From NCBI GenBank assembly GCA_910574995.1, contig CAJTCS010000004.1, positions 248,001 to 312,000 on the forward strand: a DNA stretch of 64,000 nucleotides, given 5' to 3'. The position numbers and the translations under genes were made by a program. The stretch is from Oscillospiraceae bacterium (GTDB taxonomy: Bacteria > Bacillota > Clostridia > Oscillospirales > Acutalibacteraceae). The notes under the pieces were generated by a model. That model was not told the origin of the DNA. It ran no database searches and saw only the letters and a list, made by a program, of their open reading frames with translations. Of the stretch, positions 1,105-26,424 are shown piece after piece. Positions within the stretch are counted from its first letter, which is position 1. Each line of letters opens with the position of its first letter.

Positions 1105-1253
1105 TGATAAATGCTCCTTTCTGTTACCCTTTCCGGGTACAGCTTTATCATACCGACCCAGCTTGAATTGAGTTTGTATTGAATATGTTTTTTATGTGGA
1201 GATGGAAAAGGGCGGCAAGCCTTTCGCTCACCGCCCGTTGAGGTCTGATATTT

Positions 1254-6664: not shown

Positions 6665-9069
6665 GCGCCGCTCACTTCCTCCGGCTTCGTCGTCATAACG
6701 CGGTACAGCTCCGTATCTTTCGGGAAGCGGTCTACAAAGGGCAGAATAACATTGCCGTAGAATAAAAGCCCCTCGCCCGCTTCGGTGTGGGTAACGTACT
6801 TCATCTGCTTGGGGGAGATATTGAGCTGCTTTGCAAGGATAGCCCGGTCGCCTGCCGCCTGATTGAGCATGAGGACAAAATCGCTGTTCTCAAAGATATT
6901 TTCCACTTCCCGGCTGCTCAAAAGGTCTTTCACGTTCTGCGTAATGGCGGTGGGAATCCCGCCCCATTTACGAAAACGCTTCCAGATTTCAACGCTGTAA
7001 GCGGCAGTCTGTTCCTCTTTCAGCAGCAAATGAAACTCGTCCATGTAGTAGCGGGTGGACTTCTGTTCGGCGCGGTTGACGGTGACGCGGTTCCATACCT
7101 GGTCTTGGACAATGAGCATACCCAGCTTTTTAAGCTGCTTGCCGAGCTGCTTAATGTCAAAGCAGACAAGGCGGTTATTTAGCTCCACGTTGGTACGGTG
7201 GTTAAAGACGTTAAGGCTCCCGGAAACATACAGCTCCAACGCCGCCGCGATACGCGCCGCTTCCGGCTCCGGCTGCTTCAAAAGCTCGTCGTACAGGTCG
7301 CCCAGAATCGGCATTTTCTCCGGGTCGGGGTCGGCAAGGAACGGGCGGTAGACGTTACGCACAGCCCGGTCAATGACAGTCTTTTCCACGGGCTGCAAGC
7401 CCTCCTTGCCGCCTACCACCAGCTCACACAGCGAAAGAATGAAGTCGGATTTCAGCGCAAGGGGGTTGTCGTCCTCGCTGTAATTGAGGTTTATATCCAT
7501 CGGATTCACATACTGGCTGCTGGTGGGCGAAATGCGCACCACCTGTCCGTGAAGCCGCTGCACAAGGGGGTAATATTCCGCTTCCGGGTCGCAGATAATA
7601 ATATCGTCGTCGGTAATGAGGAAAGCGTTTGCCATTTCCCGCTTTGCCGCAAAGCTCTTGCCGCTGCCGGGGGTGCCGAGGATTAGACCGTTTGGGTTTT
7701 TCAAACGCTTGCGGTCACACAGAATCATGTTGTTACTAAGGGCGTTTAAGCCGTAGTACAAGGCCGCGCCCGTCTGAAAAAGCTCCTGCGTGATAAAGGG
7801 GATAAAGATAGCGGTGCTGCTGGTGGTAAGCCCCCGCTGAATGGGGATAAGGTTCTCCCCGATGGGGACGCTTGCCATAAGGCCCGCTTCCTGCATATAG
7901 TCAAGGCGGGTCAGGGCGCAGTTGTATTTCTGCGCGATACCCGCCGCCGCGAACACGTCATTGTCCAGCTTCCGCTTCGTGTCTGCCATGTTCACCACAA
8001 GGAACGTCAGCAAAAACATTCTTTCATTCCTGCTCTGTAAATCCTGCAAAAGATTCTTCGCTTCGCTGCCGAATGTGGCGAGGTCGGACGGAATAATGTC
8101 CATGTCGTAGCCGCTGCGGACGGCCTTTTTCTGTTCCTCGATCTTCATCTTGTCAAGGTCGGTGATCTTGCGCTTGATGGTCTTGATGGCTTCGGTCTGG
8201 TCGATACTGCGGATATGCAGATTGACGATCACGCCCGTTTCAAGGTCGAGAATGTCCGCAAGCATACGGTCGTTCAGCTCCGGCGCAAGGATTTCAAGGA
8301 AGCTCACCGCCCCCAGCTTGCGCCCCATGCGGAAATAGCGTCCCTCGCCAAAGCGGAACGAGGACGGGGCGATAAAATCCTTTGTGGACAGCCCGGACGG
8401 GGCCAGCCAATCCCACGAAAAACGGAACGGTTCGCCCTCCGGGTGGAAAACGCCGTGTAGGGTCTGCAAGCGTTCATACCCCGTCTGCGGGCGGGCGGTC
8501 ACGCCCAGCACCTTAAAATTGTTCAGCACATCGGTTTCAATGCGGGAAAGCCGCGCCTTTGCCGCCGCAAGGTTGTCCGCTTCGATGGAGAACGTGATAT
8601 ACTTCTGCTTCACAAGGCCGTTGTTGCCCTTTTCAAGCTGGTTTTTCAGCATATCCGCGTACTCGCTGCGGATAGAGTTGAAAGCGTCGTCCTGCGGGGG
8701 AATGTCGATAGCCCGCTGCGCCTTTTCCCGCTGCGCCCCCTGATTGATGAAAGAAAGCTGCACCGAAACGGAAGCGTCAAAGTAGTTGAGGAAGTCGCAC
8801 CAGTTTTCAAAAATGGCGGTCTTGTCGTCGGCCTGTGCAAGCTGGTAGTTTATGTCCTCAAACGCGATACTCTTTGAATACCGCTTGTCCGAAACATGGC
8901 AGATACCGTCCGGGTACATTTGCAGATAGGGGATAGTCTGCTGGGCGGTGTGGGGCTTGCCGTCGCCCTTTGCCTTTTGGATAAGGGCGGCAATTTCTTT
9001 CTTCTCTGCGCGGGTCAGCTTCCTTTTAGCCCCTGCGGGGGCGGTTGCTGTGTTTTGTGCCTTTGGCAA
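6661..9069 (-). CDS. VirB4/TraE-type conjugation ATPase
   Basis: About 802 residues, starting at TTG 9069, where AAGGAGG sits 9 nt upstream. A longer frame to 9174 merely overlaps PrgI and has no ribosome site. Walker A is GTPGSGKSFAAKREM, with IICDPEAEYYPLV and YYMDEFHLLL (Walker B) downstream. This is the energy-supplying ATPase of the type IV secretion channel at the cytoplasmic membrane. The ribosome site lies inside prgI and the end overlaps the methylase, so the whole block is one coupled operon. Confidence 0.93.
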   Translation of the reverse strand: MPKAQNTATAPAGAKRKLTRAEKKEIAALIQKAKGDGKPHTAQQTIPYLQMYPDGICHVSDKRYSKSIAFEDINYQLAQADDKTAIFENWCDFLNYFDASVSVQLSFINQGAQREKAQRAIDIPPQDDAFNSIRSEYADMLKNQLEKGNNGLVKQKYITFSIEADNLAAAKARLSRIETDVLNNFKVLGVTARPQTGYERLQTLHGVFHPEGEPFRFSWDWLAPSGLSTKDFIAPSSFRFGEGRYFRMGRKLGAVSFLEILAPELNDRMLADILDLETGVIVNLHIRSIDQTEAIKTIKRKITDLDKMKIEEQKKAVRSGYDMDIIPSDLATFGSEAKNLLQDLQSRNERMFLLTFLVVNMADTKRKLDNDVFAAAGIAQKYNCALTRLDYMQEAGLMASVPIGENLIPIQRGLTTSSTAIFIPFITQELFQTGAALYYGLNALSNNMILCDRKRLKNPNGLILGTPGSGKSFAAKREMANAFLITDDDIIICDPEAEYYPLVQRLHGQVVRISPTSSQYVNPMDINLNYSEDDNPLALKSDFILSLCELVVGGKEGLQPVEKTVIDRAVRNVYRPFLADPDPEKMPILGDLYDELLKQPEPEAARIAAALELYVSGSLNVFNHRTNVELNNRLVCFDIKQLGKQLKKLGMLIVQDQVWNRVTVNRAEQKSTRYYMDEFHLLLKEEQTAAYSVEIWKRFRKWGGIPTAITQNVKDLLSSREVENIFENSDFVLMLNQAAGDRAILAKQLNISPKQMKYVTHTEAGEGLLFYGNVILPFVDRFPKDTELYRVMTTKPEEVSGA

Positions 9070-9421
9070 TCGCTGATACCTCCTTTTCAAGTTTCCGCTG
9101 CTTTTCCAAGACAGCGTACAGGTTTTCGATCTGATAGGGCCGCTCCTTTGGACGGATAAACTTTGTCTGCACAATGTTGCGGATTACCGTTTCAAGGGGC
9201 TGCCCGTGTTTTTCGTACATGGCAAAGAGGAAGCAGGGGAGCATGACGGCGCACATCAACGCCGCCGCAAGGCTCGTCCCGGCACTTCCTTTGAGCAAAA
9301 AGAAAAGCGGCAAGCCCATAGCGAGGGCCGCCGCAAAGCAAACGATCTGCCGCTTTGTCAAATTGAGGGCGACTTTCGTTTTTACTTTCGTCAGGTCTTT
9401 GGGTACGGGTACATACGCCAA
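9026..9421 (-). CDS. PrgI-family type IV secretion membrane protein
   Basis: 131 residues, TTG start at 9421 behind AAAGGAGGTTATCGC. It begins AYVPVPKDLTKVKTKV and has two close hydrophobic helices (about 25-45 and 50-67), the PrgI/VirB3-like pattern. It is a small inner-membrane component of the mating channel, encoded directly upstream of VirB4 as in other Firmicutes ICEs. Confidence 0.88.
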   Translation of the reverse strand: MAYVPVPKDLTKVKTKVALNLTKRQIVCFAAALAMGLPLFFLLKGSAGTSLAAALMCAVMLPCFLFAMYEKHGQPLETVIRNIVQTKFIRPKERPYQIENLYAVLEKQRKLEKEVSAIAKGTKHSNRPRRG

Positions 9422-9443: not shown

Positions 9444-10313
9444 TTAATGGGCGCTAAAGATGGATTTTGCCAACGCGCCGGATTTGAACAGGGAGAAGCA
9501 AAGGATAACGGTATAGGCCGCGAGGGAGAAGATCGCGCTGTGCAGATTGTCCGCTATTATCATGCTGTTTACCAAAACCGCGTAAATGCCGACGCATATC
9601 ATAATCAGGAAGCCCTGAAATCCGAGGGCGATAAGGGATTTGAGGTAGTTGTTTCCAATCTGCCCCCACTCCCGGTTTGTCATTGTTGCGAATGGAATAG
9701 GCGCAACCGAGCAATACAGGTATATTTCTATCATTCTGCCGTACAGGATAACCGTTATCAGCACCGACATGATTTTCATGCACAGGCTGACAAGGCTTGT
9801 TTCCATGACAAGCAATAAGAGTTCGGGGATTTCCATAGCGTCAAGCCCGGCCTGCATGGACGATAGGGCGGCGTCCACGTCTATATTTGTGTTGCCGCCA
9901 ATCACGCCCGCCGCGCCGGAAACGACGTGCTGCGCCATATCGAACACAGCCATAGTAATATCAAAGGTGTGGGTGACGAGATACACCGCCACCCACGCCT
10001 TGAAAATCCACTTGAAGAACATGAACGTATCAATGTCGTGCATATTGTTCTTTTCCGTTACCATGCTGATTAGCTCGTAGCACAGGACATAGGTAATGAC
10101 AAGCCCCGCAATGGGGACTATGACACTCTCCGATAGCGTCCGTATCATGGAGAATATGCCAGCGTTCCACCCTTGCGGGGTCTGCCCTACCTCTGCGGCG
10201 ATTGTGCCGACTTTTTCGTTTACGTCCCCGAACATAGTTGACAGATTACCGTTGATGGCTCCTATCAGGATTTCCTTTATCCATTCGTTAATCGCGTCAA
10301 GTATGCTCTGCAT
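9444..10313 (-). CDS. VirB6/TrbL-like channel protein (CD1112 family)
   Basis: 289 residues with five or six hydrophobic helices (for example SVIVPIAGLVITYVLCYELI and FLIMICVGIYAVLVNSMII), starting MQSILDAINEWIKEILIGAI. It matches the polytopic VirB6/TrbL-like proteins of clostridial ICEs, which form the inner-membrane part of the DNA channel. It lies between Maff2 and PrgI. Confidence 0.85.
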   Translation of the reverse strand: MQSILDAINEWIKEILIGAINGNLSTMFGDVNEKVGTIAAEVGQTPQGWNAGIFSMIRTLSESVIVPIAGLVITYVLCYELISMVTEKNNMHDIDTFMFFKWIFKAWVAVYLVTHTFDITMAVFDMAQHVVSGAAGVIGGNTNIDVDAALSSMQAGLDAMEIPELLLLVMETSLVSLCMKIMSVLITVILYGRMIEIYLYCSVAPIPFATMTNREWGQIGNNYLKSLIALGFQGFLIMICVGIYAVLVNSMIIADNLHSAIFSLAAYTVILCFSLFKSGALAKSIFSAH

Positions 10314-10331: not shown

Positions 10332-10424
10332 TTAACCGAACAGGCCGGACAGCAGGGGTACGAGGGTGCCGCCGATCAGGGCGACACCGCCGCCCGCCAT
10401 GAGCTGCTTCATGCCCTGGCTTTT
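10332..10424 (-). pseudogene. maff2: maff2, 3' half (interrupted by IME)
   Basis: Thirty codons (KSQGMKQLMAGGGVALIGGT...SGLFG) ending TAA at 10332 are the C-terminal half of the small hydrophobic Maff2 conjugation protein. They lack a start. The N-terminal half lies 8.9 kb away at 19343-19467. Joining the halves at the AA core gives the expected NDNPGA-KSQGMKQL sequence, so excision would restore an intact gene. Confidence 0.88.
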
Positions 10425-10433
10425 TGCTCATGT
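10421..10433. other. IME attachment junction, left
   Basis: Plus strand TTTTTGCTCATGT: maff2 sequence to 10422, core TT at 10423-10424, then IME end TGCTCATGT. It mirrors the right junction. Confidence 0.8.
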
Positions 10434-10506
10434 GAGATAAAGAAGTAAAAGAAGTGTAAAAAATTTTGCCGTTCCCTGTCCGGCTGACTGCCGGACGGGT
10501 CGGGCT

Positions 10507-12129
10507 TTAGTCGGGCAACTCTACCTTGCCGACAAAAGAGTAATAGATTTCGATTTCCTGTCTGCGGAGCTTCCCCCGGCGTTTCCCGTCAAGGGCTTCC
10601 GATTCGTGGATTACGATTTTCTCCACAAACTCCCGTAACAGGGTAGGGGTAAGTTCCTCAAAGCTGGTGTACTTGCGTACCACTTTCATAAACTTTTCAG
10701 CGTTTGCCGTGGCTTCCAGCGTTTTAGAAAGCTCGCTCTGCAAAGCGGCGGCTTTCTCTTTCAGTTCCTTTTGCTCGGCTTCGTAGTCTGCCGAAAGTTC
10801 CGTGAAACGCTCGTCCGATATGCGCCCGGTCACACTGTCCTCATACAGCCGCTTGAAGATGGCGGAGAGTTCCGCAATCCGTTTTTCTGCCGCTTCCAGC
10901 TCTTTCTTCTTTGCGGCGTTCCGGCGTTTGCTCCCGTCCTCGGTCTGCTCGGTCAACAGCTTCATAAACCGGGCTTCGTGCTTGGCGGCGTAGCTGGTGA
11001 CTTTCCGTAGGTTCTCGGTCACTCCGGCGGTCAAAAGGTCGGTGCGGATAAAGTGCGCCGTACAGTCTGCCGTGCGCTTCTTGTAGCTGCCGCATATGTA
11101 GCAGTCCTGTTTCCGTTTATCCGTCTGATACCTCTGCTGGTACATGACGCTGCCGCAATCCGCACAAAAGAGTATGCCGGAGAACAAGCCCACTTCATCA
11201 TAGCGGTTAGGGCGTTTGCGCTGTTTGCGTAGCTCCTGCACACGCTCCCATGTGTCCTTGTCGATTATCTGCTCGTGGTGGTTCTCAAAGATTGCCTGTT
11301 TGTCCTCGCTGTTGTAGATAATCTTGCTGCACTTGTAGGATTGGGTGGTGGTCTTGAAGTTCACAAGGCAGCCCGTGTATTCCCGGTTTTCAAGGATATG
11401 TACCACGGTGTTCGCCGCCCACTTGCACTCATAGCCGGGGTGGTAGCGGCGGGTGCTTCCCGTCCTGCGGTATTCCAGCGTTCCCGGCGTGGGGATTTCC
11501 TGCTCCGTGAGCATACGGGCTATCTTGGTCGGACCGTTCCCGGCAAGGCATAGGCTGTAAATCTGCTTTACCACGGGGGCGGCTTCTTCGTCAATGATGA
11601 AATTTTCGTCCTCGTCCATGAGGTAGCCGTACACGGGCTTGCTTGTGACGGGCTTCCCACTCATGCCTTTTGAGCGTTTTACCGCCCGGATTTTCTTGCT
11701 CGTATCCCTCACCAGCCATTCGTTAAAAATGTTACGCAAAGGCGCAAAATCGTTGTCTCCCTGTGCGCTGTCTACGCCGTCATTGATGGCAATGAAGCGG
11801 ACGCCGTTCTGTGGGAAAATCATTTCGGTGTACATTCCCACTTGAAGATAGTTTCGCCCTAACCGTGACATATCCTTTACAATGACTGTTCCCACAAGCC
11901 CCGCTTCAATGTCGGCAAGCATGGACTGGAAGCCGGGTCTTTGGAAATTTGCCCCGGAGAATCCGTCGTCCGTGTACCATTTGAGGTTGGAAAAGCCGTT
12001 CTGTTTTGCGTAGGCTTCAAGGATTCGCTTCTGGTTGCTTATGGAGTTGGATTCGCCTTGGAGCGTGTCCTCGTGCGACAATCTCGGATAAAGGGCGGTA
12101 ATGAGTTTCTGGGTGGTCTGTCTTGGCAT
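10507..12129 (-). CDS. Large serine recombinase (IME integrase, TnpX-like)
   Basis: 540 residues. The resolvase domain (1-150) has the catalytic Ser in ALYPRLSHED and the arginine-rich DMSRLGRNYLQVG. The recombinase domain is about 165-290. A zinc ribbon (CADCGSVMY...CYICGSYKK) and a coiled-coil region rich in Ala/Lys/Glu (about 400-480) follow. It should integrate and excise the IME using a 2-bp core at maff2. It lies just inside the left end, as expected for the element's own integrase. Confidence 0.93.
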   Translation of the reverse strand: MPRQTTQKLITALYPRLSHEDTLQGESNSISNQKRILEAYAKQNGFSNLKWYTDDGFSGANFQRPGFQSMLADIEAGLVGTVIVKDMSRLGRNYLQVGMYTEMIFPQNGVRFIAINDGVDSAQGDNDFAPLRNIFNEWLVRDTSKKIRAVKRSKGMSGKPVTSKPVYGYLMDEDENFIIDEEAAPVVKQIYSLCLAGNGPTKIARMLTEQEIPTPGTLEYRRTGSTRRYHPGYECKWAANTVVHILENREYTGCLVNFKTTTQSYKCSKIIYNSEDKQAIFENHHEQIIDKDTWERVQELRKQRKRPNRYDEVGLFSGILFCADCGSVMYQQRYQTDKRKQDCYICGSYKKRTADCTAHFIRTDLLTAGVTENLRKVTSYAAKHEARFMKLLTEQTEDGSKRRNAAKKKELEAAEKRIAELSAIFKRLYEDSVTGRISDERFTELSADYEAEQKELKEKAAALQSELSKTLEATANAEKFMKVVRKYTSFEELTPTLLREFVEKIVIHESEALDGKRRGKLRRQEIEIYYSFVGKVELPD

Positions 12130-12146
12130 AATGTCCTCCGTTTCCG

Positions 12147-12201
12147 ACAGCCAGCCCCACTATTCCGTAGGTCTATTATACCATAGGGCGGGGCTGGCTG
12201 T
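12147..12201 (-). promoter_or_regulatory. Recombinase promoter region flanked by inverted repeat
   Basis: A perfect 12-bp inverted repeat (ACAGCCAGCCCC at 12147-12158, GGGGCTGGCTGT at 12190-12201) surrounds a minus-strand TATAAT (about 12174-12179) upstream of the recombinase. It can act as an operator or as a transcript hairpin ending the tnpW message. Confidence 0.55.
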
Positions 12202-12261
12202 ACAGTCCTTTTGCTACTTTATGTCGAAAAATATCACATTTTTTTATTAAGGTTTATCGCA

Positions 12262-12459
12262 TTATATAGCGTGGGCGGTTCTTTCCCCGGTTGCGCTTTC
12301 CGCTTCCAGCACTTTCATCATCTTGTCGGCGGCAGTGGCGGTAGTGCCTTGTTTGAAATAGCCGGAAACCACAAGGACGGTGTTCCCTCTGCGTACCTCG
12401 GTCACGCAATCCGGGCGGCGGGCGGTGGTGGCGGTGCTTTTCTTGGGCGTGTCGGTCAT
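12262..12459 (-). CDS. tnpW: TnpW-family transposon protein
   Basis: 65 residues from ATG 12459. AAAGGAGA is 7 nt upstream and the start overlaps the DnaC-like stop as ATGA. The core PDCVTEVRRGNTVLVVSGYFKQG..TAADKMMKVLE is the TnpW family signature. TnpW is a small conserved protein encoded next to TnpX-type recombinases; its function is not established. Confidence 0.85.
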   Translation of the reverse strand: MTDTPKKSTATTARRPDCVTEVRRGNTVLVVSGYFKQGTTATAADKMMKVLEAESATGERTAHAI

Positions 12460-13310
12460 AGGCAAATCTCCTTTCCGTTCAGCAGCGTTTTAAGCTGTTC
12501 CATTTTCTCCCGTGCTTTGGCTTTTCTGAAATTCTCCCCGGTAATGCGGACGGGGGTACACATTTCTGTAAGGCGGTCATAAATGCGGGCGTGGGCGGTG
12601 TCCTCCGGGTTCTGCAATTCTTCCAGCGTCAAATTTGTGGTGACAATCAGCGGCTTTTGGCTGCGGTATCGGCTGTCAATCACGTTGTAAACCTGTTCAA
12701 GCCCGTATTCTGTGCCACGCTCCATGCCGAAATCGTCAAGGATAAGCAGAGGGAAGCTGCAAAGGCGGGCTATGTACTCGTTACGGTCTTTGAAGCTGGC
12801 GGCAAGGTCATTGAGTATCAAGGCAAAGTTTGTCATGCACACGGAAATCTCTTTCTCCATGAGGGCGTTGGCGATACACCCGGCAAAATAGCTCTTGCCT
12901 GTGCCTACCATGCCCCATAACAGATAGCCGATATTCCCGGCTTTCATTTCCTCCCAACACTCCACATAGGTATAGGCTTTGTGCATTTGGGGGCATTTCC
13001 CGTTGTCGTTCTCAAACGTCCATTCCCGCATAGCCGGGTCGGTGAAGCCTGTCCGTTTCAGCCGTTCCACTTCCTCCCGGTGCTTGTATTCCCTATGGCT
13101 GGCTTCCAGCGTTTCCCGGCGTTTCCGCTGACAGTCACATTCTTTCGGGTGGCGGTCACGCCCGAAAAAGGTTTTGCCCTCCGGGAAGTAGGCTTCTTTG
13201 GGCTGGCGGCAGCTCCCGCAATATAAAAGCCCGTCCTCGCCCGTGTAGTCCTCCGGCTCTGCTTCCTGTGCCGTGGCAAGCCGGAAAATGGCGTTATCAT
13301 AATCGCTCAT
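12456..13310 (-). CDS. DnaC/IstB-like ATP-binding protein
   Basis: 284 residues from ATG 13310, where AAGGAGGACGATTTT precedes; the ATG at 13331 lacks a site. An N-terminal zinc cluster (CGSC...CDCQ) precedes Walker A GMVGTGKSYFAG and Walker B LLILDDFG. It resembles helicase loaders and probably works with the adjacent RepA_N protein to start replication of the IME. Confidence 0.88.
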   Translation of the reverse strand: MSDYDNAIFRLATAQEAEPEDYTGEDGLLYCGSCRQPKEAYFPEGKTFFGRDRHPKECDCQRKRRETLEASHREYKHREEVERLKRTGFTDPAMREWTFENDNGKCPQMHKAYTYVECWEEMKAGNIGYLLWGMVGTGKSYFAGCIANALMEKEISVCMTNFALILNDLAASFKDRNEYIARLCSFPLLILDDFGMERGTEYGLEQVYNVIDSRYRSQKPLIVTTNLTLEELQNPEDTAHARIYDRLTEMCTPVRITGENFRKAKAREKMEQLKTLLNGKEICL

Positions 13311-13372
13311 AAAATCGTCCTCCTTGTTCATGGTCTTTTACGCCCTGTTTACGGGGCGTTGTATTTATGTGG

Positions 13373-14137
13373 TCAAAGGCTCTCGCCCTCTTTGTAGGAA
13401 TAATCGGGGATTCCTTTCTTTCCTGTGCCTTTCCTGTCACGTCTTGCCCACATACGGACAGCGGCGGCATGGTTGGCGTACACTTTCCCATAGGCGGCTA
13501 TGAACTCGCTCAATTCCTCAATGAACCGTTCCAGCCTGTCCGGGTATTCCCCTTTCAGCTCCGCATACTCGGATTCGGAGAGGAAAAGGTTTTTATATCT
13601 GCCAAAGGGTGCGGGCTGCTCCCCACTCACTCCTTTTCGTTGGTTCTCTTTTAGTTGGTTTATAGTAAGTTGGTTAGGGGCCGGTTTTCCGTCCAACGCA
13701 AAGGTCGGTTTTCCGACCTTATGAGGGTCGCTTTTCCGGCTATCAGAGGGTCGGTTTTCCGGCTGTATGGCAGTCATATGGTCGGAAAACTGTACCACTG
13801 GCATTTGCGGTATTTTCACATAAAGACGGTTCGGTGCGGAGAAGCCCCGGCGTTCCCTCACCAGAAGCCCGGCAGCGTCCAGCTCGTTCAGTGCGCTTTT
13901 TATGGCGGTGCTGCCTTTATCCAGCATTTCCGTTATCTCCGAAACGGGATAGACAATATACGTCCTGCCCTCGCTGTCCTGCCAGCCGTTCTTCTGTGAG
14001 AGGGTGGAACGGTCAAGAAGCAGCCCATAGAGCAGCCTTGCAGTATGCGACAAGTCCATTTTCAGCAGAAAATAGGGATAGGGCAGAAAACGGGGCAATA
14101 TGGTGTCGGCTTTGATGTATTCGGTTATGGTTCTCAC
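13373..14137 (-). CDS. repA: RepA_N-type replication initiator
   Basis: 254 residues. The N-terminal RepA_N/winged-helix domain (about 5-115) contains FLPYPYFLLKMDLSHTARLLYGLLLDR and STAIKSALNELDAAGL. A low-complexity linker and a C-terminal DnaD-like tail follow. The GTG start at 14137 overlaps its own Shine-Dalgarno. Three codons later, where related proteins start (TEYIKAD), the codon is ATA with AGGAGG at proper spacing. It suggests the element replicates autonomously after excision. Confidence 0.85.
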   Translation of the reverse strand: MRTITEYIKADTILPRFLPYPYFLLKMDLSHTARLLYGLLLDRSTLSQKNGWQDSEGRTYIVYPVSEITEMLDKGSTAIKSALNELDAAGLLVRERRGFSAPNRLYVKIPQMPVVQFSDHMTAIQPENRPSDSRKSDPHKVGKPTFALDGKPAPNQLTINQLKENQRKGVSGEQPAPFGRYKNLFLSESEYAELKGEYPDRLERFIEELSEFIAAYGKVYANHAAAVRMWARRDRKGTGKKGIPDYSYKEGESL

Positions 14138-14155
14138 CTCCTGTCTGTGGCTTCT

Positions 14156-14196
14156 GTTACGCAGTTAAAACGGCATTTTCGGGGGTAAAGGATAAA
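14156..14196 (-). promoter_or_regulatory. Conserved leader/origin motif upstream of repA
   Basis: A 41-bp sequence starting GTTACGCAGT and containing ATTTT..GGGGTAA..ATAAA (plus strand) lies 19 bp before the initiator start. It matches 32 of 41 positions of 23569-23609, which precedes the ICE's own initiator-like gene in the same orientation. It may be a binding site, origin element or transcript leader. Confidence 0.6.
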
Positions 14197-14237
14197 TGTA
14201 TCGGCTACCCGTTGAGGGCGGTCAAAAAAGCCTTGAT

Positions 14238-14624
14238 TTATGGGGGTCTGGAATATCCTAAAGCGTGACATTTATCCCTCTGTTTCCGCTTGCGCTGTGC
14301 GGCTTTGATTCTTTTCATGCGTCCGGCGCAGTTCGGGCAGTATTTCCCCCGGTTTGACTTGGGGAGAAAATACCCGCCGCACTCGGTACAGCGTTTCCTG
14401 TCTGCCCGGTGGAGTAGGGCGGCTTCCAGTTTCCCGTCCAATGGCAGCACGGCGGCAATGAACCAGCGGCATAAAAGGGAATAGCTGATACTCTGGACGC
14501 ATACGCAAGGCTCGCCGTTATCCAGCAAGATACAGTTGCCGTTATCGTAGTTGCAGCACTCATGCACAAGGCGGCGGGCGGCTCTGTACTGTGGGTAGTC
14601 CATGTAGGGGCGTTTACCGTTCAT
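14238..14624 (-). CDS. Cysteine-rich VLP-domain protein
   Basis: 128 residues from ATG 14624, overlapping the relaxase 3' end. Cysteine pairs occur in HECCNYDNGNCILL, EPCVCVQSISYSLLCRWF, CTECGGYF and YCPNCAGRMKR. The last two form a zinc ribbon followed by a basic tail. The family is common next to relaxases of clostridial mobile elements; its role is unknown. Confidence 0.8.
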   Translation of the reverse strand: MNGKRPYMDYPQYRAARRLVHECCNYDNGNCILLDNGEPCVCVQSISYSLLCRWFIAAVLPLDGKLEAALLHRADRKRCTECGGYFLPKSNRGKYCPNCAGRMKRIKAAQRKRKQRDKCHALGYSRPP

Positions 14625-16254
14625 TTTCCCGCCCCTTTCCCCGTTCCGGCTCACGGCGTAATATCTTGTCAAGATTGCTTTTCACGGTCTGCAATTCCCG
14701 GACGTTCGCTTTCTTCTCCCGGTACTCGTTGTAAAGGGCGTTTTTCTCTTTGGTAAGCTGCTCAATCTCCGCTTGTAGGGCTTTGGACGCTGGCAGTTTG
14801 GAGATTCCCTGTGCCTTGAAATACCGGGCGGCAGATTCGGAAATGATAAACTCGCTTTCGTGCTGCTCCCGGTAGGCTCTCCGGGCTTTCTCCGTTTTCT
14901 GCGCCCGCAATCCGTCACGGGCTGGTTTGGTCTTGATGTACGCCAATAGCTGTTTCTGCAAGTCCTTTTTCTCCCGTAAAGTGCTTTCCACGGCTTTCAG
15001 CTTCCCGGTCGCTTCATGCAGTCCGGCACTGGCGGCGGCAAGGGCGGCTTCCAGTTCCTCCGGGGAAGAAAAGCCGGATTCCTCGTAAACGCTCATGGTC
15101 GCCGCCATTTGCTTCAGATTGTGCAAAGTCGCCCACTTCTCATAGCCTTTCCCCTTGCCCTCGGCTCTCTTGGCAGCTATGTCTACCATGCGCTGTACTC
15201 CGTCATTCTTCGGGGAGTTTATGGCGGCTTTATTGCGCTGTAAGCGGTCTTTTATGCTGCGGGGGTATTTCTCTTTGGGTAGGGGCTTTTCGACGGCTCT
15301 GGCGGCGTTCTGTGCGTTTATGGTGAGTGCTTCCAGTACGGCGGCACGGTCAAAATCATCACCCAACTTCCGGGCGGTGATGGGCTTCGTCCTGTCCGGC
15401 GTGAGATAACTCAACCTCCCCCGGCTCTCCTTGACGGTCACGCCTTGCTGTAACAGTTTCCCGGAAAAGTCCTCAAAGGAAACGGCAGAGGACAGGGCTG
15501 CTCGGATTGTGCGCCTTAATTTCTCCTTGTCGGTTTCAAACTTGGTTTGTTTTGGCGGTTCGCCTGTGGCGGCAAGGGAAGCGTTCTCTTTATCCAGTGC
15601 GGCTTGTCCTTTCCGTTTCGCCCAATACTCACGCTCGGTAATGCGGTTCTTGCTCCCGTGGAGTAAATCAATCTGATAGAGGTTTTCCCTGTGGCACATC
15701 TCCATGACTTCCGCTTTGAAATATTCCATAGCTGCGTCCGTACAGCGGTGCTTGCAGCCCTCCCTTGTGTCGGCTGGTCTTTCCATGTAGGGCAATAGCG
15801 GCACTTCGGCAATCCGCAAAGAATTGATTACGATATGCACATGAATATTGCCGCTGTGGTTATGCCCGTCCGGGTGAGTACAAACAAGGGCTTGGTGTCC
15901 GGGAAAATGCTCTTTACAGAACTGCTCGCCCAACACTTGCGCCCGGTCTACGGTCAAGCCGTTGTCTGGTGCGTCACGGGGGTCAAAACTGATAATGTAA
16001 TGGTGGCTCTTTACGTCCTCCCGTTTCTGGTTCTTGCCGTATCGGAGATTGGAACGCATACAGGCGATTGCAAAATCTTCATCACCGCAATTCAGAGAGG
16101 AAATACGGTAATCATCACGGAGAACAAGCCGCCCGTTTCCGTCCAGTGTGGGCTTCATGGTAAACTCGTCATGCTCAAAGGTTAGGTATTGCTCGGCAGC
16201 TCCATAGTCGGCATTTTTAGAGCTGATATGTTTGAATGTTGCCAACGGCTTCAC
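14614..16254 (-). CDS. Relaxase (MobP-type) of the IME
   Basis: 546 residues. The N-terminal relaxase domain shows HHYIISFDPRD and the metal-binding triad in GNIHVHIVINSL, with a candidate catalytic Tyr near residue 17 (NADYGAAEQYL). The C-terminal half is coiled-coil. It should nick oriT and pilot the strand. The 5' end overlaps MobC by 38 bp. Confidence 0.92.
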   Translation of the reverse strand: MKPLATFKHISSKNADYGAAEQYLTFEHDEFTMKPTLDGNGRLVLRDDYRISSLNCGDEDFAIACMRSNLRYGKNQKREDVKSHHYIISFDPRDAPDNGLTVDRAQVLGEQFCKEHFPGHQALVCTHPDGHNHSGNIHVHIVINSLRIAEVPLLPYMERPADTREGCKHRCTDAAMEYFKAEVMEMCHRENLYQIDLLHGSKNRITEREYWAKRKGQAALDKENASLAATGEPPKQTKFETDKEKLRRTIRAALSSAVSFEDFSGKLLQQGVTVKESRGRLSYLTPDRTKPITARKLGDDFDRAAVLEALTINAQNAARAVEKPLPKEKYPRSIKDRLQRNKAAINSPKNDGVQRMVDIAAKRAEGKGKGYEKWATLHNLKQMAATMSVYEESGFSSPEELEAALAAASAGLHEATGKLKAVESTLREKKDLQKQLLAYIKTKPARDGLRAQKTEKARRAYREQHESEFIISESAARYFKAQGISKLPASKALQAEIEQLTKEKNALYNEYREKKANVRELQTVKSNLDKILRREPERGKGRENER

Positions 16255-16612
16255 CTACTTTCTGCAAGACTTCAAACTTCAAGGCGGCAAGCTCCGCTGT
16301 GGCGGCTCGTACCTCTTGGGAGAGGGCGTTATAGGGTGCGCCGTACTCGTTCAGACAGCGGGCAATCTGGTTCAAGTTGCTGCCGATTTTTCCGTACTCG
16401 GCTGTTAGCTTTCCAACGGCAGACAGCAGTTCATCATTAACCGGGGAAACAGTAATGACCGGGCGTATGCTTGACTTGATAAGGGCTTGCCGGATAAACT
16501 CGGCTTGGCTCATTTTGCAGAGGGTGACACGCTCGGAAAACTCGGCGTATTCTTCCTCGGTCAAGCGTGTCTTGATTACCCGGTGGCGGTGGGGCGTGTT
16601 GTATCTTTTCAT
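16217..16612 (-). CDS. mobC: MobC-like relaxosome accessory protein
   Basis: 131 residues from ATG 16612 (AAGGAGCTGAAAGCC upstream; an upstream ATG at 16675 lacks a site). A basic N-terminus and ribbon-helix-helix core (KTRLTEEEYAEFSERV..CKMSQAEFIRQAL) precede the MobC motif GSNLNQIARCLNEYG. It probably binds oriT just upstream and helps the relaxase. Confidence 0.9.
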   Translation of the reverse strand: MKRYNTPHRHRVIKTRLTEEEYAEFSERVTLCKMSQAEFIRQALIKSSIRPVITVSPVNDELLSAVGKLTAEYGKIGSNLNQIARCLNEYGAPYNALSQEVRAATAELAALKFEVLQKVGEAVGNIQTYQL

Positions 16613-16639
16613 GGCTTTCAGCTCCTTTCTTTTTATGGT

Positions 16640-17051
16640 TTGCCCTCTCACCAATAGGAGAAAAACAGGGGGCAAAGCGGAAGTGTTTTTTGAAAAATCC
16701 GAAAATATTTTTTCGGGGATTTTTCAAGCGGCGCAAGCCGCAAAAAGGCGGGCTTGGGGTGGCAACCCCAACAAGATTCCCATAGGACAAAATGAGCGAT
16801 TAGCGAAATTTGGTACTGTGGTAGAATCTTGCTCTAAGAAAGTGGCGGCTTCCTCTGTGCTGGCTTCTCTCAATACATTTAGTGCCGCAAGCGGGGATTT
16901 TGCCAAAGTTGTGGCGATATTTCTCCCCTACTACCTACAACACCACGCAAGCCGGAATAGGCGGAAAAAGGGAACAAAAAACATATAAAAAAGCAGCAAA
17001 TCTTTTTCAGACTTACTGCTTTTGATGACCAACATTAAGGGTATATTTAGT
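16640..17051. other. Non-coding mob upstream region, candidate oriT
   Basis: About 400 bp without a convincing gene upstream of mobC. It contains a GC hairpin (GCGGCgcaaGCCGC, about 16728-16741) and a perfect 7-bp inverted repeat TTGGGGTGGCAACCCCAA at 16754-16771. G-rich dyads of this kind next to mobC are typical of MOBP nic regions. The nick site itself cannot be assigned. Confidence 0.5.
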
Positions 17052-17534
17052 TTATTTTTGTAAGATAATGATTTCGCCCTCTCCACACGGCTCTTGGAAG
17101 CCTTCATAATGGTGTTCTAATATTTCATTAGTTACTATAAATGGAGAATTGGCATTTAAAAACAGGTTTCTTTTGTCTAACCTTTTTCGTAAAATTTCCT
17201 TGCTGGCTTTCATATAAACAAGTTCTACCGTACCGCCAGCTTTTTCTATCATAGCTTTGTAAAAATCACGATTTTCTTTACTCCAAAAGCTAAAATCAAT
17301 CACTATGTTTTGTCCTTCTTTAATTAGCTTTAATAATCTTTCACGAAGTGTCAACTCGACTTTTTCTGATAGTTCCTCGTATTGGCTATCTGGGTAATCA
17401 ATTCCTTTTTTTCCATAGATTTTCCACATTTCTTCATCTATCGAAAGTCGAATATATCCTTCTTTTTCTTTCTGCTTTGAGTAAGTGGTTTTCCCTGAAC
17501 CGCATACTCCGCACATCATTATAACTTTACTCAT
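17052..17534 (-). CDS. P-loop kinase (AAA_33/zeta-like fold)
   Basis: 160 residues from ATG 17534 (MSKVIMMCGVCGSGKTTYSK). Walker A is GVCGSGKTT, NIVIDFSFWSKENRDFY is a Walker-B-like strand, and a lid follows (KEILRKRLDKRN). It probably phosphorylates a small molecule or acts like a zeta/chloramphenicol-phosphotransferase-type kinase; the substrate is unknown. This gene and its regulators are AT-richer than the mob/rep genes, suggesting a separate cargo origin. Confidence 0.75.
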   Translation of the reverse strand: MSKVIMMCGVCGSGKTTYSKQKEKEGYIRLSIDEEMWKIYGKKGIDYPDSQYEELSEKVELTLRERLLKLIKEGQNIVIDFSFWSKENRDFYKAMIEKAGGTVELVYMKASKEILRKRLDKRNLFLNANSPFIVTNEILEHHYEGFQEPCGEGEIIILQK

Positions 17535-17566
17535 ATATAAACCTCTAAAGAAATCTCTTTGTATAG

Positions 17567-17770
17567 TCAACAGTCAAAGCGAAATTTGAATAGAGCAGCT
17601 ACAAGTCGCTGTCTTATACTATCCTCGGTATCTATATTGATATGTCCGTTTTCAAGGGAAGCATATCTAATTCGTTTGTTGTAATGACGTAAAACCTCGT
17701 CCACGGCTTCCGGCTCTCCTTTAGTTGCTTTTATAATCGTTTCGTAAGGCACAAGATTAGGTTTATCCAT
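17567..17770 (-). CDS. Small HTH regulator (Tn916 Orf8-like)
   Basis: 67 residues from ATG 17770, with GGAGGTG inside the preceding sigma-like gene. The sequence PNLVPYETIIKATKGEPEAVDEVLRHYNKRIRYAS..RQRLVAALFKFRF matches the HTH_16 family that pairs with Orf7-type sigma proteins in conjugative elements. It overlaps the upstream gene by 8 bp. Confidence 0.85.
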   Translation of the reverse strand: MDKPNLVPYETIIKATKGEPEAVDEVLRHYNKRIRYASLENGHINIDTEDSIRQRLVAALFKFRFDC

Positions 17771-18167
17771 TTGAAAACACCTCCATTTCTTTTTGTAAAA
17801 TCTGCAAAGCACTGTGTATGTGATACCATATTGTACTTCGGCAACGTCCATATAATTCACTGATTTCTTGTTGCGTATAATGTCCGAAAAAATAAAGGAA
17901 GATAATTTCTCTCTTTTTCTCCGGTAAAGATTGCAGGGCAGTAGCAAGTTCTCCATTAGTGAAGATTACTGTATGATTGCATATAGTAACTGGGTATTCT
18001 TCATAAGGTGCTGTAAAATATCTATCTAACGTATTTAAGGGATAGAATTTTTCTTCTGTGAGGTATTCAAGGGATATTTCCTTTTTCTGCCTCCTGTTTC
18101 TTTCACGCCACGCATTGATAGCTGCATAGCGTATAACTACTTTACAAAAAGCATTAAAAGTATACAT
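17763..18167 (-). CDS. Sigma-70 region 4-like regulator (Orf7-type)
   Basis: 134 residues from ATG 18167 (AAGGAG 7 nt upstream); a start at 18200 is also possible. The C-terminus is a sigma region 4 helix-turn-helix (LQSLPEKKREIIFLYFFGHYTQQEISELYGRCRSTIWYHIHSAL). Such proteins act as positive regulators in Tn916-type elements. It is coupled to the small HTH gene. Confidence 0.82.
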   Translation of the reverse strand: MYTFNAFCKVVIRYAAINAWRERNRRQKKEISLEYLTEEKFYPLNTLDRYFTAPYEEYPVTICNHTVIFTNGELATALQSLPEKKREIIFLYFFGHYTQQEISELYGRCRSTIWYHIHSALQILQKEMEVFSNG

Positions 18168-18285
18168 GATATGCTCCTTGTATGTTTCTGTACAAACCAT
18201 AAAATATTCCCTCTTTTCCCACAAAGAGTGCTACATGATTTATAGTTACTTTTTGTAGACGGTACTACAATCTATTGTTTCCGTT

Positions 18286-18750
18286 TTACAGCTCTTGTAT
18301 ATCTATTTCTTCAATAGCTTTATCCAAAAATATCTCCCCGTCTAAATGCTCTAATTCGTGACAAAAACATTGTGCAAGTCCGTCCTCAGCAGTAATCATT
18401 ATTTCTTCGCCGTATTCATTTTGCGCTTGGATTGTTACCTTTTGAGGACGAATTATTTTTACGCAACGATTAGGAAAACTAAGGCAGGCTTCGTTACATT
18501 CTTGGATACCACTATAACCTATGATTAACGGGTTTACCAGCTTTAGACAACACTCGTCATAATCAATCACAACAAGACGTTTTAATATTCCTACTTGATT
18601 TGCCGCTATAGCCGCACCATTTTCGGTCTGTTGAAGTGTATCCAACATATCATCAAGGATTTGTCGGATTTTATCGTTGATAACTTTTACTTCTTTGCAC
18701 CTTTTTCGCAAAATTGGGTCATCATAATACCGAATGTTTCTTATTGCCAT
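18286..18750 (-). CDS. def: Peptide deformylase
   Basis: 154 residues from ATG 18750 (GGAGGGATAATA upstream). The three deformylase motifs are present with small deviations: GAAIAANQVG (motif 1), EACLSFP (motif 2, EGCLS in most enzymes) and QCFCHELEHLDG (motif 3, HExxH zinc site). It removes the N-terminal formyl group from nascent proteins. A second deformylase on an IME is unusual cargo and could lower sensitivity to deformylase inhibitors. It is co-transcribed with the XRE gene, which it overlaps by 29 bp. Confidence 0.88.
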   Translation of the reverse strand: MAIRNIRYYDDPILRKRCKEVKVINDKIRQILDDMLDTLQQTENGAAIAANQVGILKRLVVIDYDECCLKLVNPLIIGYSGIQECNEACLSFPNRCVKIIRPQKVTIQAQNEYGEEIMITAEDGLAQCFCHELEHLDGEIFLDKAIEEIDIQEL

Positions 18751-18985
18751 TATTATCCCTCCTGCTACTATCAGCCCTTGATTTTCTTGGACTTTCTTCA
18801 AACAAAAAAACATCTTCAATAGGGCAGCCGAATACCTTTGAAATGTCGTAAGCAAGCCAAATAGATGGTTCAAACTTTTCTGTTTCGATTGCGTTAATTG
18901 CCTGTCTTGATGTTCCCACCATTTCGCCTAATTGTTCTTGGGTCATTCCTTTTTCTTCTCTTAATTCTCTGATTCGATTTTTCAT
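18722..18985 (-). CDS. XRE-family repressor
   Basis: 87 residues from ATG 18985 behind AAAGGAG. The HTH is NRIRELREEKGMTQEQLGEMVGTSRQAINAIE (residues 3-35), followed by a basic tail. It heads the operon with the deformylase. Two copies of a GTAAGGTTGACCTTAC-type palindrome flank its promoter, so it very probably represses itself and the deformylase. Confidence 0.9.
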   Translation of the reverse strand: MKNRIRELREEKGMTQEQLGEMVGTSRQAINAIETEKFEPSIWLAYDISKVFGCPIEDVFLFEESPRKSRADSSRRDNNGNKKHSVL

Positions 18986-19001
18986 TAACAAACTCCTTTC
19001 T

Positions 19002-19056
19002 GTAAGGTTGACCTTACTACATAGTATATCACTTTTTTGTGTAATGTCAACCTTAC
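19002..19056 (-). promoter_or_regulatory. Promoter and two operators of xre-def operon
   Basis: Minus strand: -35 TTGACA (19045-19050), 16-bp spacer, -10 TATACT (19023-19028). Palindrome GTAAGGTTGACCTTAC at 19002-19017 lies just downstream of the -10. A near-identical copy at 19041-19056 covers the -35. This is a classic autorepression layout. Confidence 0.85.
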
Positions 19057-19104
19057 AAAATATTTTTTAAGAATGTATGAATGTGTGAGATTTCGTAGTC
19101 ATCG

Positions 19105-19254
19105 GCATTGTGGGAATGTGTATAACTGGCTATCTTATGGAATTGTGGGTAACTCTGTTTGCAGGACGTGGGAAAGCTGCACTTTAGCTTTTCCATGTGC
19201 TGTGAATAGAGTTATCCATGATTCCATAGCCTGTTATACACATTTCCATAATGC
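19105..19254. repeat. 150-bp imperfect palindrome near IME right end
   Basis: Arms of about 50 bp (19105-19159 and 19205-19254), sharing ATGTGTATAAC and GGCTAT, surround an inner dyad GGAAAGCT...AGCTTTTCC. It lies in the 310-bp gene-free stretch between the XRE promoter and the IME end. It could be a recombinase arm site, a double-strand origin or an oriT-like cruciform. Confidence 0.6.
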
Positions 19255-19326
19255 TTTTCTTTTGGTCTTTGGTTCGGAATAGTGTGGTGCTGGCGGTCTA
19301 TCTCTTGTTTTCGGTTGCTTGCTTCT

Positions 19327-19467
19327 TTACCGTACATGAGCATTGGCACCGGGATTGTCGTTGCCGTAGCCCTCAAGCAGATTGATAACGCCCCAAATGC
19401 CGAGGCCCGCGCCCAGCGCGATAACAAGGGTCTGAAGAACACCAACCGCAGAATTGAAAAATGCCAT
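19327..19467 (-). pseudogene. maff2: maff2, 5' half (interrupted by IME)
   Basis: Starts ATG 19467 behind AAAGGAG; MAFFNSAVGVLQTLVIALG..LEGYGNDNPGA is the Maff2 N-terminus with one hydrophobic helix. After 19343 the frame runs into IME DNA (NAHVR) and stops at 19327, giving a 46-residue truncated product. Maff2 is a small membrane protein always found between VirD4 and VirB6 genes in these ICEs. Its loss may affect transfer until the IME excises. Confidence 0.9.
19334..19346. other. IME attachment junction, right
   Basis: Plus strand ACATGAGCA (19334-19342), core TT (19343-19344), then maff2 5' sequence GGCACC. ACATGAGCA is the exact reverse complement of the left end TGCTCATGT. Confidence 0.8.
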
Positions 19468-19680: not shown

Positions 19681-19956
19681 TTAACCGCGCTGCGCCTGCT
19701 GTTGTTCATAGAGCCTTTCGCAAGCGGCGATAAACCGCCGCATATCAGCCTGCCGCTGGGCTTCCGTCAGGGGGAGAATCAGCGGCATACCAAGCGGATT
19801 GTCCTTGTCCAGCTCAACACGCACTCCGTACTTTGCGGAAAGCTCCTTGCAGCGTTTTTCACGCTCCGAAACCATTTCCTGATAGCAGAGGACAAGCCCG
19901 TTGACCGTCCTTGCCATTTCCCGGTTTTGCTGCTTCTTCCTGATACGCTTATTCAT
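19681..19956 (-). CDS. Small conserved ICE protein
   Basis: 91 residues from ATG 19956, overlapping the TraG stop (ATGAATAAG). Basic and coiled-coil-like (NKRIRKKQQNREMARTVNGL, LTEAQRQADMRRFIAACERL). I recognise it only as a recurrent gene between traG and maff2 in this ICE type; no function is known to me. Confidence 0.7.
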   Translation of the reverse strand: MNKRIRKKQQNREMARTVNGLVLCYQEMVSEREKRCKELSAKYGVRVELDKDNPLGMPLILPLTEAQRQADMRRFIAACERLYEQQQAQRG

Positions 19957-21796
19957 GGCCTGTGTCCTCCTGTAATTCGTCGGCGTCGATCTCGTAGTAG
20001 TCAAACACTTCATCGGGCTTGACGATGGCGGGGCGTCGTCTTAGGTGCTTCTCCATGTCAAAGGCGTTTTTCGGGTCAGCGTCGGACAGGTGCCTATACT
20101 GCGGGTGCTTCGTTATATCAAACTTATCCGAGAAGAACGGGCGCACCCCGCGCACCTGTAAAATGCACTTGCCGCCGTCCATGACAGCGATTTCGTCCTG
20201 TGTCATAAGCTCTTTCCCCAGCTTTTGATAGTTCAGCCCGTGGGACAGCTCCCGTCCCCGCGTTTCGGACGTGTTGAAGCTGTCAATCGTTTCCTTGCCG
20301 AGTATTTCCGAGATTTCCTTTAGCGTGGATTTCTCCTTGCCACCCAAGAAAAGGGTGGTGTCGCAGTTGCCGACTATGGTATCGGCGTTGTCCTTGTAAA
20401 TGGCCTTTAGCTGCGACTGGCTTTGCAGGATAATCGACGCGGAGATTTCCCGGCTTCGGATAGTGGCAATGAGCTTTTCAAACTTCGGAATCTGCCCGAT
20501 GTTCGCAAACTCGTCAAGCAAGCAGCGCACATGAACGGGAAGCCGTCCGCCGTACACATCATCGGCCTTGTCGCACAGGAGATTGAAAAGCTGTGTGTAG
20601 AGGATAGATACGACAAAGTTAAAAGTGTCGTCCGTGTCGCTGATAATGACGAAAAGGGCGGTTTTCCTATCCCCCAGCGTGTCCAGCTCCATTTCGTCGC
20701 TCTCCATCAGCTCGCGTAGCTCTCGAATGTCAAAGGGGGCCAGCCGCGCACCGCAGGAAATGAGGATAGAGCTTCGGGTCTTGCCAGCGGAAAGCAGAAA
20801 CTTCTTGTACTGCCGGACGGCAAAATGCTCCGGGTCTTTTTCTTCCAGCCGTTCAAACATCAGGTCAACGGGGCTTTGAAACTCCGGGTCGTCCTCGCGG
20901 GCTTCGCTGGCGTTAATCATTTCAAGCAGCGTGGTAAAGTTCTTTTCGTCCTCCGGGGCTTCGTAGTGGATATAGCCAATCAGGGCGCAGTAAAAAAGCC
21001 GCTCTGACTTCACCCAAAAATCCTCGGTAGATTTCTCGCCGTCGCCTTTGGTGTTGGCGATTATGGTATTTACCAGCTTCAAAATATCTTTTTCACTCCG
21101 CAGATACGCAAAGGGATTGTACTTCATAGATTTTTTGAAGTTAATCGTATTCAGTACCTTGATACGGTACGGCTCATAAACGGGCTTCCCGTTCCGCATA
21201 ATGGGTTTTCCGTCTTTTCCCAGCTTCGGCGCACCACGGGCAAGCAGCTTTCCACATTCGATTAAGACTGTGCCTTTCGGGTCTGTGACAACATAGCTGC
21301 TGTGCATTTGCATAAGCGACGGCTTGACGAAAAAGCGGGTCTTGCCGCTGCCGCTCCCGCCGATCACAAGGATATTTTTATTCCTCGCGTACTTCGGCTG
21401 CTTCGGGCGGCTGTTCATGGTGAGCCGTTCTGTCTGGGTTAAGGGGATATTGTTCTCAAATACGGAATCGACATAAGGGGCTATGTCTTTTGGCCCGCCC
21501 CAACGCGCCGAACCGTACTCCATGCCTTTCCTGTACTTCTTCGCGTTCTTGCCTTTTACATAGACGGCAAGCCGGATAAGGAGCGCACCTGCAATCCCGA
21601 TTAAAAGGTCTGTCGGGTGGAAGCTGGGGGCTGCGCTGGAAAAGGCGGCGGTAAAGCCCTCGCCCATGTGCAGCAGCTTTTGGCTTGCGTCCGCACCGGG
21701 GGCAAGGCGCACCACTTCGCCCAGCTTGTCAAAAAGGTAGACAAAGAGCAGATAGGGGGCGTTTAGGATAAACAGCTTCTTGATCTCCGGCTTCAT
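19949..21796 (-). CDS. traG: VirD4/TraG coupling ATPase
   Basis: 615 residues. Two N-terminal membrane helices (about 10-25 and 62-80), Walker A VIGGSGSGKTRFFVKPS, SYVVTDPKGT, Walker B VRCLLDEFANIGQIP and the SQLKAIYKDNADTIVGNC motif define a type IV coupling protein. It docks relaxase-DNA complexes to the channel and is the likely route for the nested IME as well. Its 5' end overlaps PcfB by 4 bp. Confidence 0.93.
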   Translation of the reverse strand: MKPEIKKLFILNAPYLLFVYLFDKLGEVVRLAPGADASQKLLHMGEGFTAAFSSAAPSFHPTDLLIGIAGALLIRLAVYVKGKNAKKYRKGMEYGSARWGGPKDIAPYVDSVFENNIPLTQTERLTMNSRPKQPKYARNKNILVIGGSGSGKTRFFVKPSLMQMHSSYVVTDPKGTVLIECGKLLARGAPKLGKDGKPIMRNGKPVYEPYRIKVLNTINFKKSMKYNPFAYLRSEKDILKLVNTIIANTKGDGEKSTEDFWVKSERLFYCALIGYIHYEAPEDEKNFTTLLEMINASEAREDDPEFQSPVDLMFERLEEKDPEHFAVRQYKKFLLSAGKTRSSILISCGARLAPFDIRELRELMESDEMELDTLGDRKTALFVIISDTDDTFNFVVSILYTQLFNLLCDKADDVYGGRLPVHVRCLLDEFANIGQIPKFEKLIATIRSREISASIILQSQSQLKAIYKDNADTIVGNCDTTLFLGGKEKSTLKEISEILGKETIDSFNTSETRGRELSHGLNYQKLGKELMTQDEIAVMDGGKCILQVRGVRPFFSDKFDITKHPQYRHLSDADPKNAFDMEKHLRRRPAIVKPDEVFDYYEIDADELQEDTGHE

Positions 21797-25486: not shown

Positions 25487-25498
25487 GAGCCCCCCCCT

Positions 25499-26398: not shown

Positions 26399-26424
26399 GG
26401 TCAAGACCTCCTTCGTTTTCACCC

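Follow-up and report, generated by a model that had tools for sequence, protein, structure and literature searches.

Which element has split maff2, a gene of an integrative and conjugative element (ICE), in an Oscillospiraceae bacterium, does it move on its own, and does its excision matter to the ICE that harbours it? In this study we analysed computationally a stretch of 64,000 nucleotides (hereafter the window) from contig CAJTCS010000004.1 (contig 4) of assembly GCA_910574995.1; window coordinates are contig 4 coordinates minus 248,000. The two halves of maff2 flank an element of 8,918 bp (10425-19342, delimited by direct reading and by script), whose genes are on the minus strand and which lies between two TT/AA core dinucleotides. 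The initial annotation, made from the sequence alone, had proposed such a split by an integrative and mobilizable element (IME), giving a span, 10423-19344, that takes in both core dinucleotides. We are highly confident that this is a complete IME of the maff2-targeting serine-recombinase group, with a life cycle as proposed below. Its anatomy, ends, 2-bp core, target codon and relatives are matters of direct observation, and its boundaries are as follows.

10423..10424, unstranded: core dinucleotide TT (AA in maff2 sense) at the IME 3' junction; AA in 78 of 78 readable relatives
19343..19344, unstranded: core dinucleotide TT (AA in maff2 sense) at the IME 5' junction; AA in 53 of 53 readable relatives
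10425..10445, plus strand: terminal inverted repeat at the recombinase end, 21 bp; conservation over 81 junctions
19322..19342, minus strand: terminal inverted repeat at the cargo end; conservation over 56 junctions
19343..19467, minus strand: maff2 5' part, 41 codons and the core, continuing through five residues encoded by the IME to a stop codon (46 amino acids in all); PF12750 positions 1-43
10332..10424, minus strand: maff2 3' part, open up to its stop; PF12750 positions 41-70

Positions 1-43 of PF12750 match at 19339-19467 and positions 41-70 at 10338-10427, both above the family cut-off. Since the first half holds 41 whole codons and two core bases, codon 42 is the one cut by the element, which therefore sits at an internal site of an ICE's maff2, as maff2-targeting serine IMEs do. 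Removal of the element had been predicted to restore the codons GCC-AAA-AGC-CAG. Elsewhere in this genome, at 81378-81587 of contig 10, an uninterrupted maff2 has exactly these codons across the proposed core, and the uninterrupted reading thus need not be assumed. Continuity across the core in relatives, named initially as a check, was also found: among 34 maff2 places from searches of the order and the genus (the window and places met twice counted in), 17 are intact, 11 hold an IME at this first site, three hold a second element described below, and of the remaining three two start like a group II intron (L130, the place verified as locus L102, and L129, judged by eye only) and one resembles an IME with a variant end. 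In a family sample of 150 genomes, 15 had Maff2 matches, 35 in all, comprising 15 full-length matches, 12 ending at positions 42-43 (one of which, on contig 22 of genome G135, is a group II intron), seven C-terminal pieces and one weak, odd match. No relative of Maff2 was found among solved structures at E up to 1. In some ICEs tandem intact copies of maff2 lie a few hundred bases apart (L122, L146, L150), possibly as a spare against insertions.

The ends of the IME are imperfect inverted repeats of 21 bp with 18 of 21 positions matching, a likeness with a chance of about 9e-9 per random pair of 21-mers. Together with the TT/AA core they provide the defined ends with short direct repeat expected of an IME. 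The exact inverted 9-mers of the initial annotation are present at 10425-10433 and 19334-19342, as the outer part of this longer repeat. Taken alone, the 9-mer was rejected as evidence, since it occurs at 36 places in the genome against 24 for a reversed control pattern; the case for the IME is consequently built on the 21-bp repeat, the core and the relatives.

These relatives were obtained by a tblastn search of GTDB species genomes with the large serine recombinase of the element. Among 492 relatives the best 80 (93-99% identity), mostly from Lachnospiraceae and other Clostridia, were fetched, and their junctions were located through the end repeat, independently of the core. Indeed, the core is AA at every readable junction. 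On the 5' side, 36 of the 80 lie in maff2, 17 in other sequence and 27 are unreadable, so that 36 of 53 readable 5' flanks fall at a single codon of a gene some 71 codons long. On the 3' side, 28 run on into the rest of maff2, 32 show about 20 bp of maff2 followed by another element, 18 are in other sequence and 2 are unreadable. The 3' repeat of the relatives usually starts 77 bp after the matched recombinase; the 3' boundary in the window is 82 bp past the recombinase stop.

Between its ends the IME carries the following genes, given from the 5' end and identified by family scan except where another basis is stated.

18722..18991, minus strand: cargo helix-turn-helix (HTH) regulator
18286..18873, minus strand: cargo peptide deformylase; Pep_deformylase 1.5e-39; one of two in the genome
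17763..18224, minus strand: sigma-70-like factor; related factors in 41 of the 56 cargo stretches that could be read, the window's being counted
17567..17956, minus strand: open reading frame (ORF) that matches no family, downstream of the sigma factor; its start is uncertain
17052..17570, minus strand: cargo AAA_33 / zeta-like P-loop kinase; AAA_33 2.9e-22
16217..16675, minus strand: MobC/NikA-like relaxosome accessory protein, start uncertain
14614..16254, minus strand: MobP-type relaxase (PF03432)
14238..14672, minus strand: cysteine-rich VLP protein
13373..14137, minus strand: RepA_N replication initiator-like protein
12456..13331, minus strand: DnaC/IstB-like ATPase
10507..12129, minus strand: large serine recombinase (Resolvase, Recombinase, Zn ribbon, DUF4368)

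The element has its own recombinase, with four recombinase-related domains above cut-off, and its own mobilization genes, the MobP relaxase and MobC, while none of the 11 ORFs scanned between the ends matched a type IV secretion system (T4SS) family. Its core genes match their families without interruption. The regulator/deformylase/kinase block next to the 5' end is exchangeable cargo of low G+C content (35.5%, compared with 53.0% for the IME backbone and 55.1% for the surrounding ICE). The deformylase and kinase noted initially are both confirmed by their family matches; as to their novelty, the pair was not found in print by a literature search on one pair of terms, but the same cargo is present in L019, one of the 52 fetched relatives with a readable cargo stretch. 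This cargo is unusual yet shared with one relative. A survey of the 56 loci in which both a 5' end and MobC are present (52 of the 80 relatives, the window and three other fetched copies) showed that the stretch before MobC, of 1.6-5.2 kb, is highly variable. Besides the sigma factor, it encodes a WYL-type regulator in 16 loci and a cation-efflux protein in 8; a BlaI-type repressor and a tetracycline-type ribosomal protection protein are found in 6 loci each (the latter labelled by reading the sequence, four of its six loci holding one and the same 10,376-bp IME), and an ABC ATPase in 5. A defence role of the cargo was considered and rejected, as the HTH regulator matches 11 PADLOC models (best 1.7e-12) in what looks like a generic way; the deformylase and the DnaC-like ATPase match one model each (6e-4 and 4e-5).

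The surroundings of the IME are, in order, VirD4 (CD1115), a 110-residue protein without Pfam match, maff2, a VirB6-like protein, PrgI, VirB4 (CD1110) and CD1108. Going by the family names of these proteins, the host ICE would be Tn1549/CTn-like. Its identified proteins in the window, all by family scan, are:

19949..21796, minus strand: VirD4 coupling protein, CD1115 family
9444..10313, minus strand: VirB6/TrbL-like protein
9026..9421, minus strand: PrgI family protein
6661..9174, minus strand: VirB4 ATPase, CD1110 family
3627..5678, minus strand: CD1108 family protein

A tyrosine recombinase lies about 2-3 kb left of the window (L096), and the VirB4, VirB6, VirD4 and CD1108 genes are all open. 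The search for a relaxase of the ICE itself covered the families PF03432, PF03389 and PF02486 and found none: the single PF03432 relaxase on contig 4 is that of the IME, the sole PF03389 match on this contig is about 80 kb left of the ICE's tyrosine recombinase, and PF02486 has no match in the whole genome. The ICE may therefore be decayed and may not transfer itself. Resistance genes in or beside the ICE were also considered and rejected, in a scan that took in part of the ORFs: no resistance-specific model reached its curated cut-off among 30 window proteins and ten ORFs left of the window, VanR/VanS-type models match two-component proteins well under cut-off, and one protein away from the conjugation region, at 37827-39152, scores above the cut-off of TIGR00797, a general model for MATE efflux. 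Beside the ICE, at 24608-26422, are two neighbouring radical SAM-like proteins of related type.

We propose the following life cycle for the IME. The recombinase would join attP, formed by the two inverted ends with AA between them, to attB in maff2, cutting codon 42 and leaving a Maff2 product of 46 residues that would lack the second hydrophobic segment. The reverse reaction would restore maff2 exactly and yield a circle, which could be kept for a while by RepA_N and the DnaC-like ATPase and be nicked by the element's own relaxase with MobC. The nicked circle would then leave through a T4SS provided by the host ICE or by a different ICE of the same cell, and insert into an unoccupied maff2. 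Finally, excision might be timed to conjugation and thereby gate the host ICE; this is the least certain step of the scheme. The idea that excision restores conjugation, which the initial annotation expressed as a toggle, was published in 2017 (PMC5357655).

The alternative that survives best is that maff2 is dispensable for the T4SS, the insertion being a neutral safe site without any toggle, which we hold to be plausible though not probable. ICESp2905 was recovered in transconjugants with a maff2 IME in place, for which the authors offer re-insertion after transfer as an alternative (PMC5704250). Moreover, where maff2 is interrupted, the neighbouring VirB6-like gene is free of internal stops in 29 of 29 cases (three of which cover half or less of the gene) and VirB4 in 22 of 26, which indicates that ICEs tolerate the insertion. 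Nevertheless, all 28 loci that retain the 3' half of maff2 beside the IME have kept it open, though recent insertion would explain this likewise, and the gene is conserved in all related ICEs according to a review (PMC5704250). Such transconjugants retaining the IME also argue against a simple toggle (PMC5704250), as do the insertions outside maff2 and the lack of an ICE relaxase of the three families searched.

A second alternative is that the IME is a fixed passenger, a single insertion in a decaying ICE, inherited vertically or with the whole ICE. The lack of an ICE relaxase would fit this explanation, as would a truncated copy of the IME on contig 8 of the same genome (L098 3266-8476), 5.2 kb long, which has lost the stretch from the interior of the relaxase to the interior of the recombinase and has kept both ends. 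It is nonetheless improbable, given the uninterrupted core genes of the IME, the open VirB4, VirB6, VirD4 and CD1108 genes of the ICE, and the contrast between the window IME and that of L019, which are 96.6% alike over 8.75 kb, and their aligned ICE flanks, which are 78-86% alike. Other loci show the same contrast. IMEs of 10,376 bp with 0-2 mismatches are present at four loci (L063, L064, L065 and L067, the last outside maff2) and identical IMEs of 9,887 bp at three (L092-L094); the 500-bp flanks of these near-identical IMEs, compared without gaps, agree at 21-44% of the upstream positions, the maff2 part being counted, and at 23-33% of the downstream ones. Conversely, at eight loci the ICE flanks, over 238-1,325 bp, are at least 95% alike and the IME cargo is almost wholly different, the shared part of the compared cargo stretch being at most 13% in the 20 pairs listed, and 6 of 7 pairs in three smaller ICE-flank clusters differ likewise. 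The window's genome alone holds four N-terminal maff2 fragments running into an IME end; its three further insertions are the truncated one, another on contig 8 with both ends, and one on contig 3, for which the 20 kb fetched showed the 5' end only. Comparison of these sequences supports an IME that would move independently of the ICE, and one ICE lineage that would have received different IMEs at the same base.

Several observations weigh against an IME of this group with such a cycle. The seventh of the pairs just mentioned, L062/L066, shares its cargo fully as well as its ICE flank, as expected from co-inheritance. A search of 394 genomes of the order and 29 of the genus found no near-identical ICE with an empty site, and the empty maff2 sites that were observed belong to other ICE lineages. 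The ICE has no relaxase of the families searched. Flanks outside maff2 amount to 18 of 78 readable ones on the 3' side and 17 of 53 on the 5' side; maff2 is thus the preferred target and not the sole one. In five loci (L016, L025, L035, L086 and L091) maff2 is on the 3' side and other sequence on the 5' side, hence rearranged IME copies exist, which suggests recombination between IME copies or arrays. The initial description of the insertion as complete, site-specific and reversible is accordingly kept in part: the serine-recombinase IME is complete at its 2-bp core, reversibility is suggested by comparison, and strict specificity has to be given up. That the recombinase has low specificity, with a preference for maff2 only apparent from the abundance of ICEs, is very unlikely, for even though the 18 non-maff2 3' flanks have the same AA core and of these 3 fit AA(A/G)NNNCAGG exactly and 5 more at one mismatch, the shared codon of the 5' flanks and the end at PF12750 positions 42-43 of all 12 N-terminal fragments in the 150 genomes, one being an intron, speak against it.

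Tn4451/TndX-type elements have another target and another module content than the window IME, and comK of Listeria is an example of a prophage switch. The former resemble our element in being mobilizable and in their large serine recombinase and 2-bp core (PMC5704250); as in the latter, precise excision by the serine recombinase would restore the split gene (PMC5357655), but here the split gene belongs to another mobile element, and a regulated excision is a proposal. Serine-recombinase IMEs targeting maff2 were already known (Coluzzi 2017; PMC5357655), as the initial annotation had stated. IME_ScoC232_maff2_site1 and IMESp2907 likewise disrupt maff2 of Tn5252-superfamily ICEs, these streptococcal IMEs using two different positions of the gene and differing from ours in host group, cargo and sequence (PMC5357655, PMC5704250). 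Closest in organization is IME_Rho_tet (PMC12904643, 2026), 116 of 256 of which are inserted in MAFF2 ORFs. It shares with the window IME a serine recombinase, a relaxase, MobC, genes all in one direction, insertion into MAFF2, terminal inverted repeats of 21 bp (a likeness in length) and a 3' boundary 81-90 bp past the recombinase. The group is defined by a tetracycline ribosomal protection gene upstream of the relaxase and by a relaxase and a recombinase at least 50% identical over 90% to R. hominis references (PMC12904643). Unlike it, our element carries the HTH regulator, the deformylase and the kinase, and no ribosomal protection gene was matched among the window cargo ORFs scanned with Pfam and NCBIfam. 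Elements like that of the window would go unlisted in a screen that required this gene (PMC12904643). A locus with ribosomal protection cargo, on contig 21 of G135, has a recombinase 87.8% and a relaxase 74.2% identical to those of the window.

Of greatest interest is that unrelated insertions crowd into a short stretch of maff2. In 32 of 60 maff2-type 3' flanks a second element starts about 20 bp downstream of the first, with a serine recombinase 35.5% identical to that of the window (one example compared); by eye, its insertion point falls inside CAG-TCATGGC, some 16-26 bp beyond the first core. It is often stacked with the first serine element in a single maff2, being placed behind a site-1 IME in 32 of the 80 loci, with complete examples on contig 21 of G135 and in L060/L123/L124, and it occurs alone with the first site uninterrupted in L114 and L115. 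Loci showing it are L104 and L105 (G135 contig 21), L113-L115 and L123-L126, and related recombinases (76-100%) are found in eight fetched loci. A shortened Maff2 variant was rejected as an explanation of these flanks, of which the first 20 bp or so vary with the ICE and the remainder is constant within a class; it is further ruled out by the serine-recombinase-bearing element ending in the rest of maff2 at several places.

Introns occupy the same stretch. Group II introns lie after the first base of codon 39 in L102 (about 6330-7230), L117, L118 and L119, two being roughly 0.8-0.95 kb long and the other two roughly 2.8 kb, with RF02004 scores of 163-174 bits and RF00029 also matched; by eye, their splicing would keep the maff2 frame. 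In L116 (Eubacterium plexicaudatum ASF492, the genome of the L018 record), a group I intron of about 396 nt (about 991-1386, minus strand; RF00028 63.9 bits, gathering threshold 50) lies between codons 45 and 46 of an ICE's maff2, and no in-frame joining was found for it by eye with the usual splice rules. In 14 loci (13 genomes) hand-picked from the 80, 95 Maff2 rows comprise 12 full, 36 N-terminal at 42/43, 11 at 51 and 5 other, with C-terminal rows from 41/42 (5), 44/45 (23) and 39/40 (3); these counts are not prevalences, since the second-element class was favoured in the choice. Stacking and introns in maff2 are apparently unreported in the excerpts seen of the literature on maff2 with IMEs or group II introns. 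We tentatively suggest that codons 39-51, between two hydrophobic segments, could be a landing strip for four unrelated invaders of ICEs, namely the group II intron (39), the site-1 IME (42), the group I intron (45/46) and the second serine element (48-51), in which case Maff2 would be a checkpoint where parasites of ICEs lodge. If this is true, the secretion system would work only once each of them had been spliced out or excised.

Our work thus describes a natural and highly replicated system for asking whether hitchhiking elements switch the conjugation of their host element, in which a single base of a single gene has many occupants and many copies are empty, in some cases several within one genome. 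It also indicates that many other cargos are carried on a backbone similar to the one known to spread tetracycline resistance. Finally, several unrelated mechanisms of insertion converge on one short stretch of an ICE gene, which may hint at what makes maff2 special.

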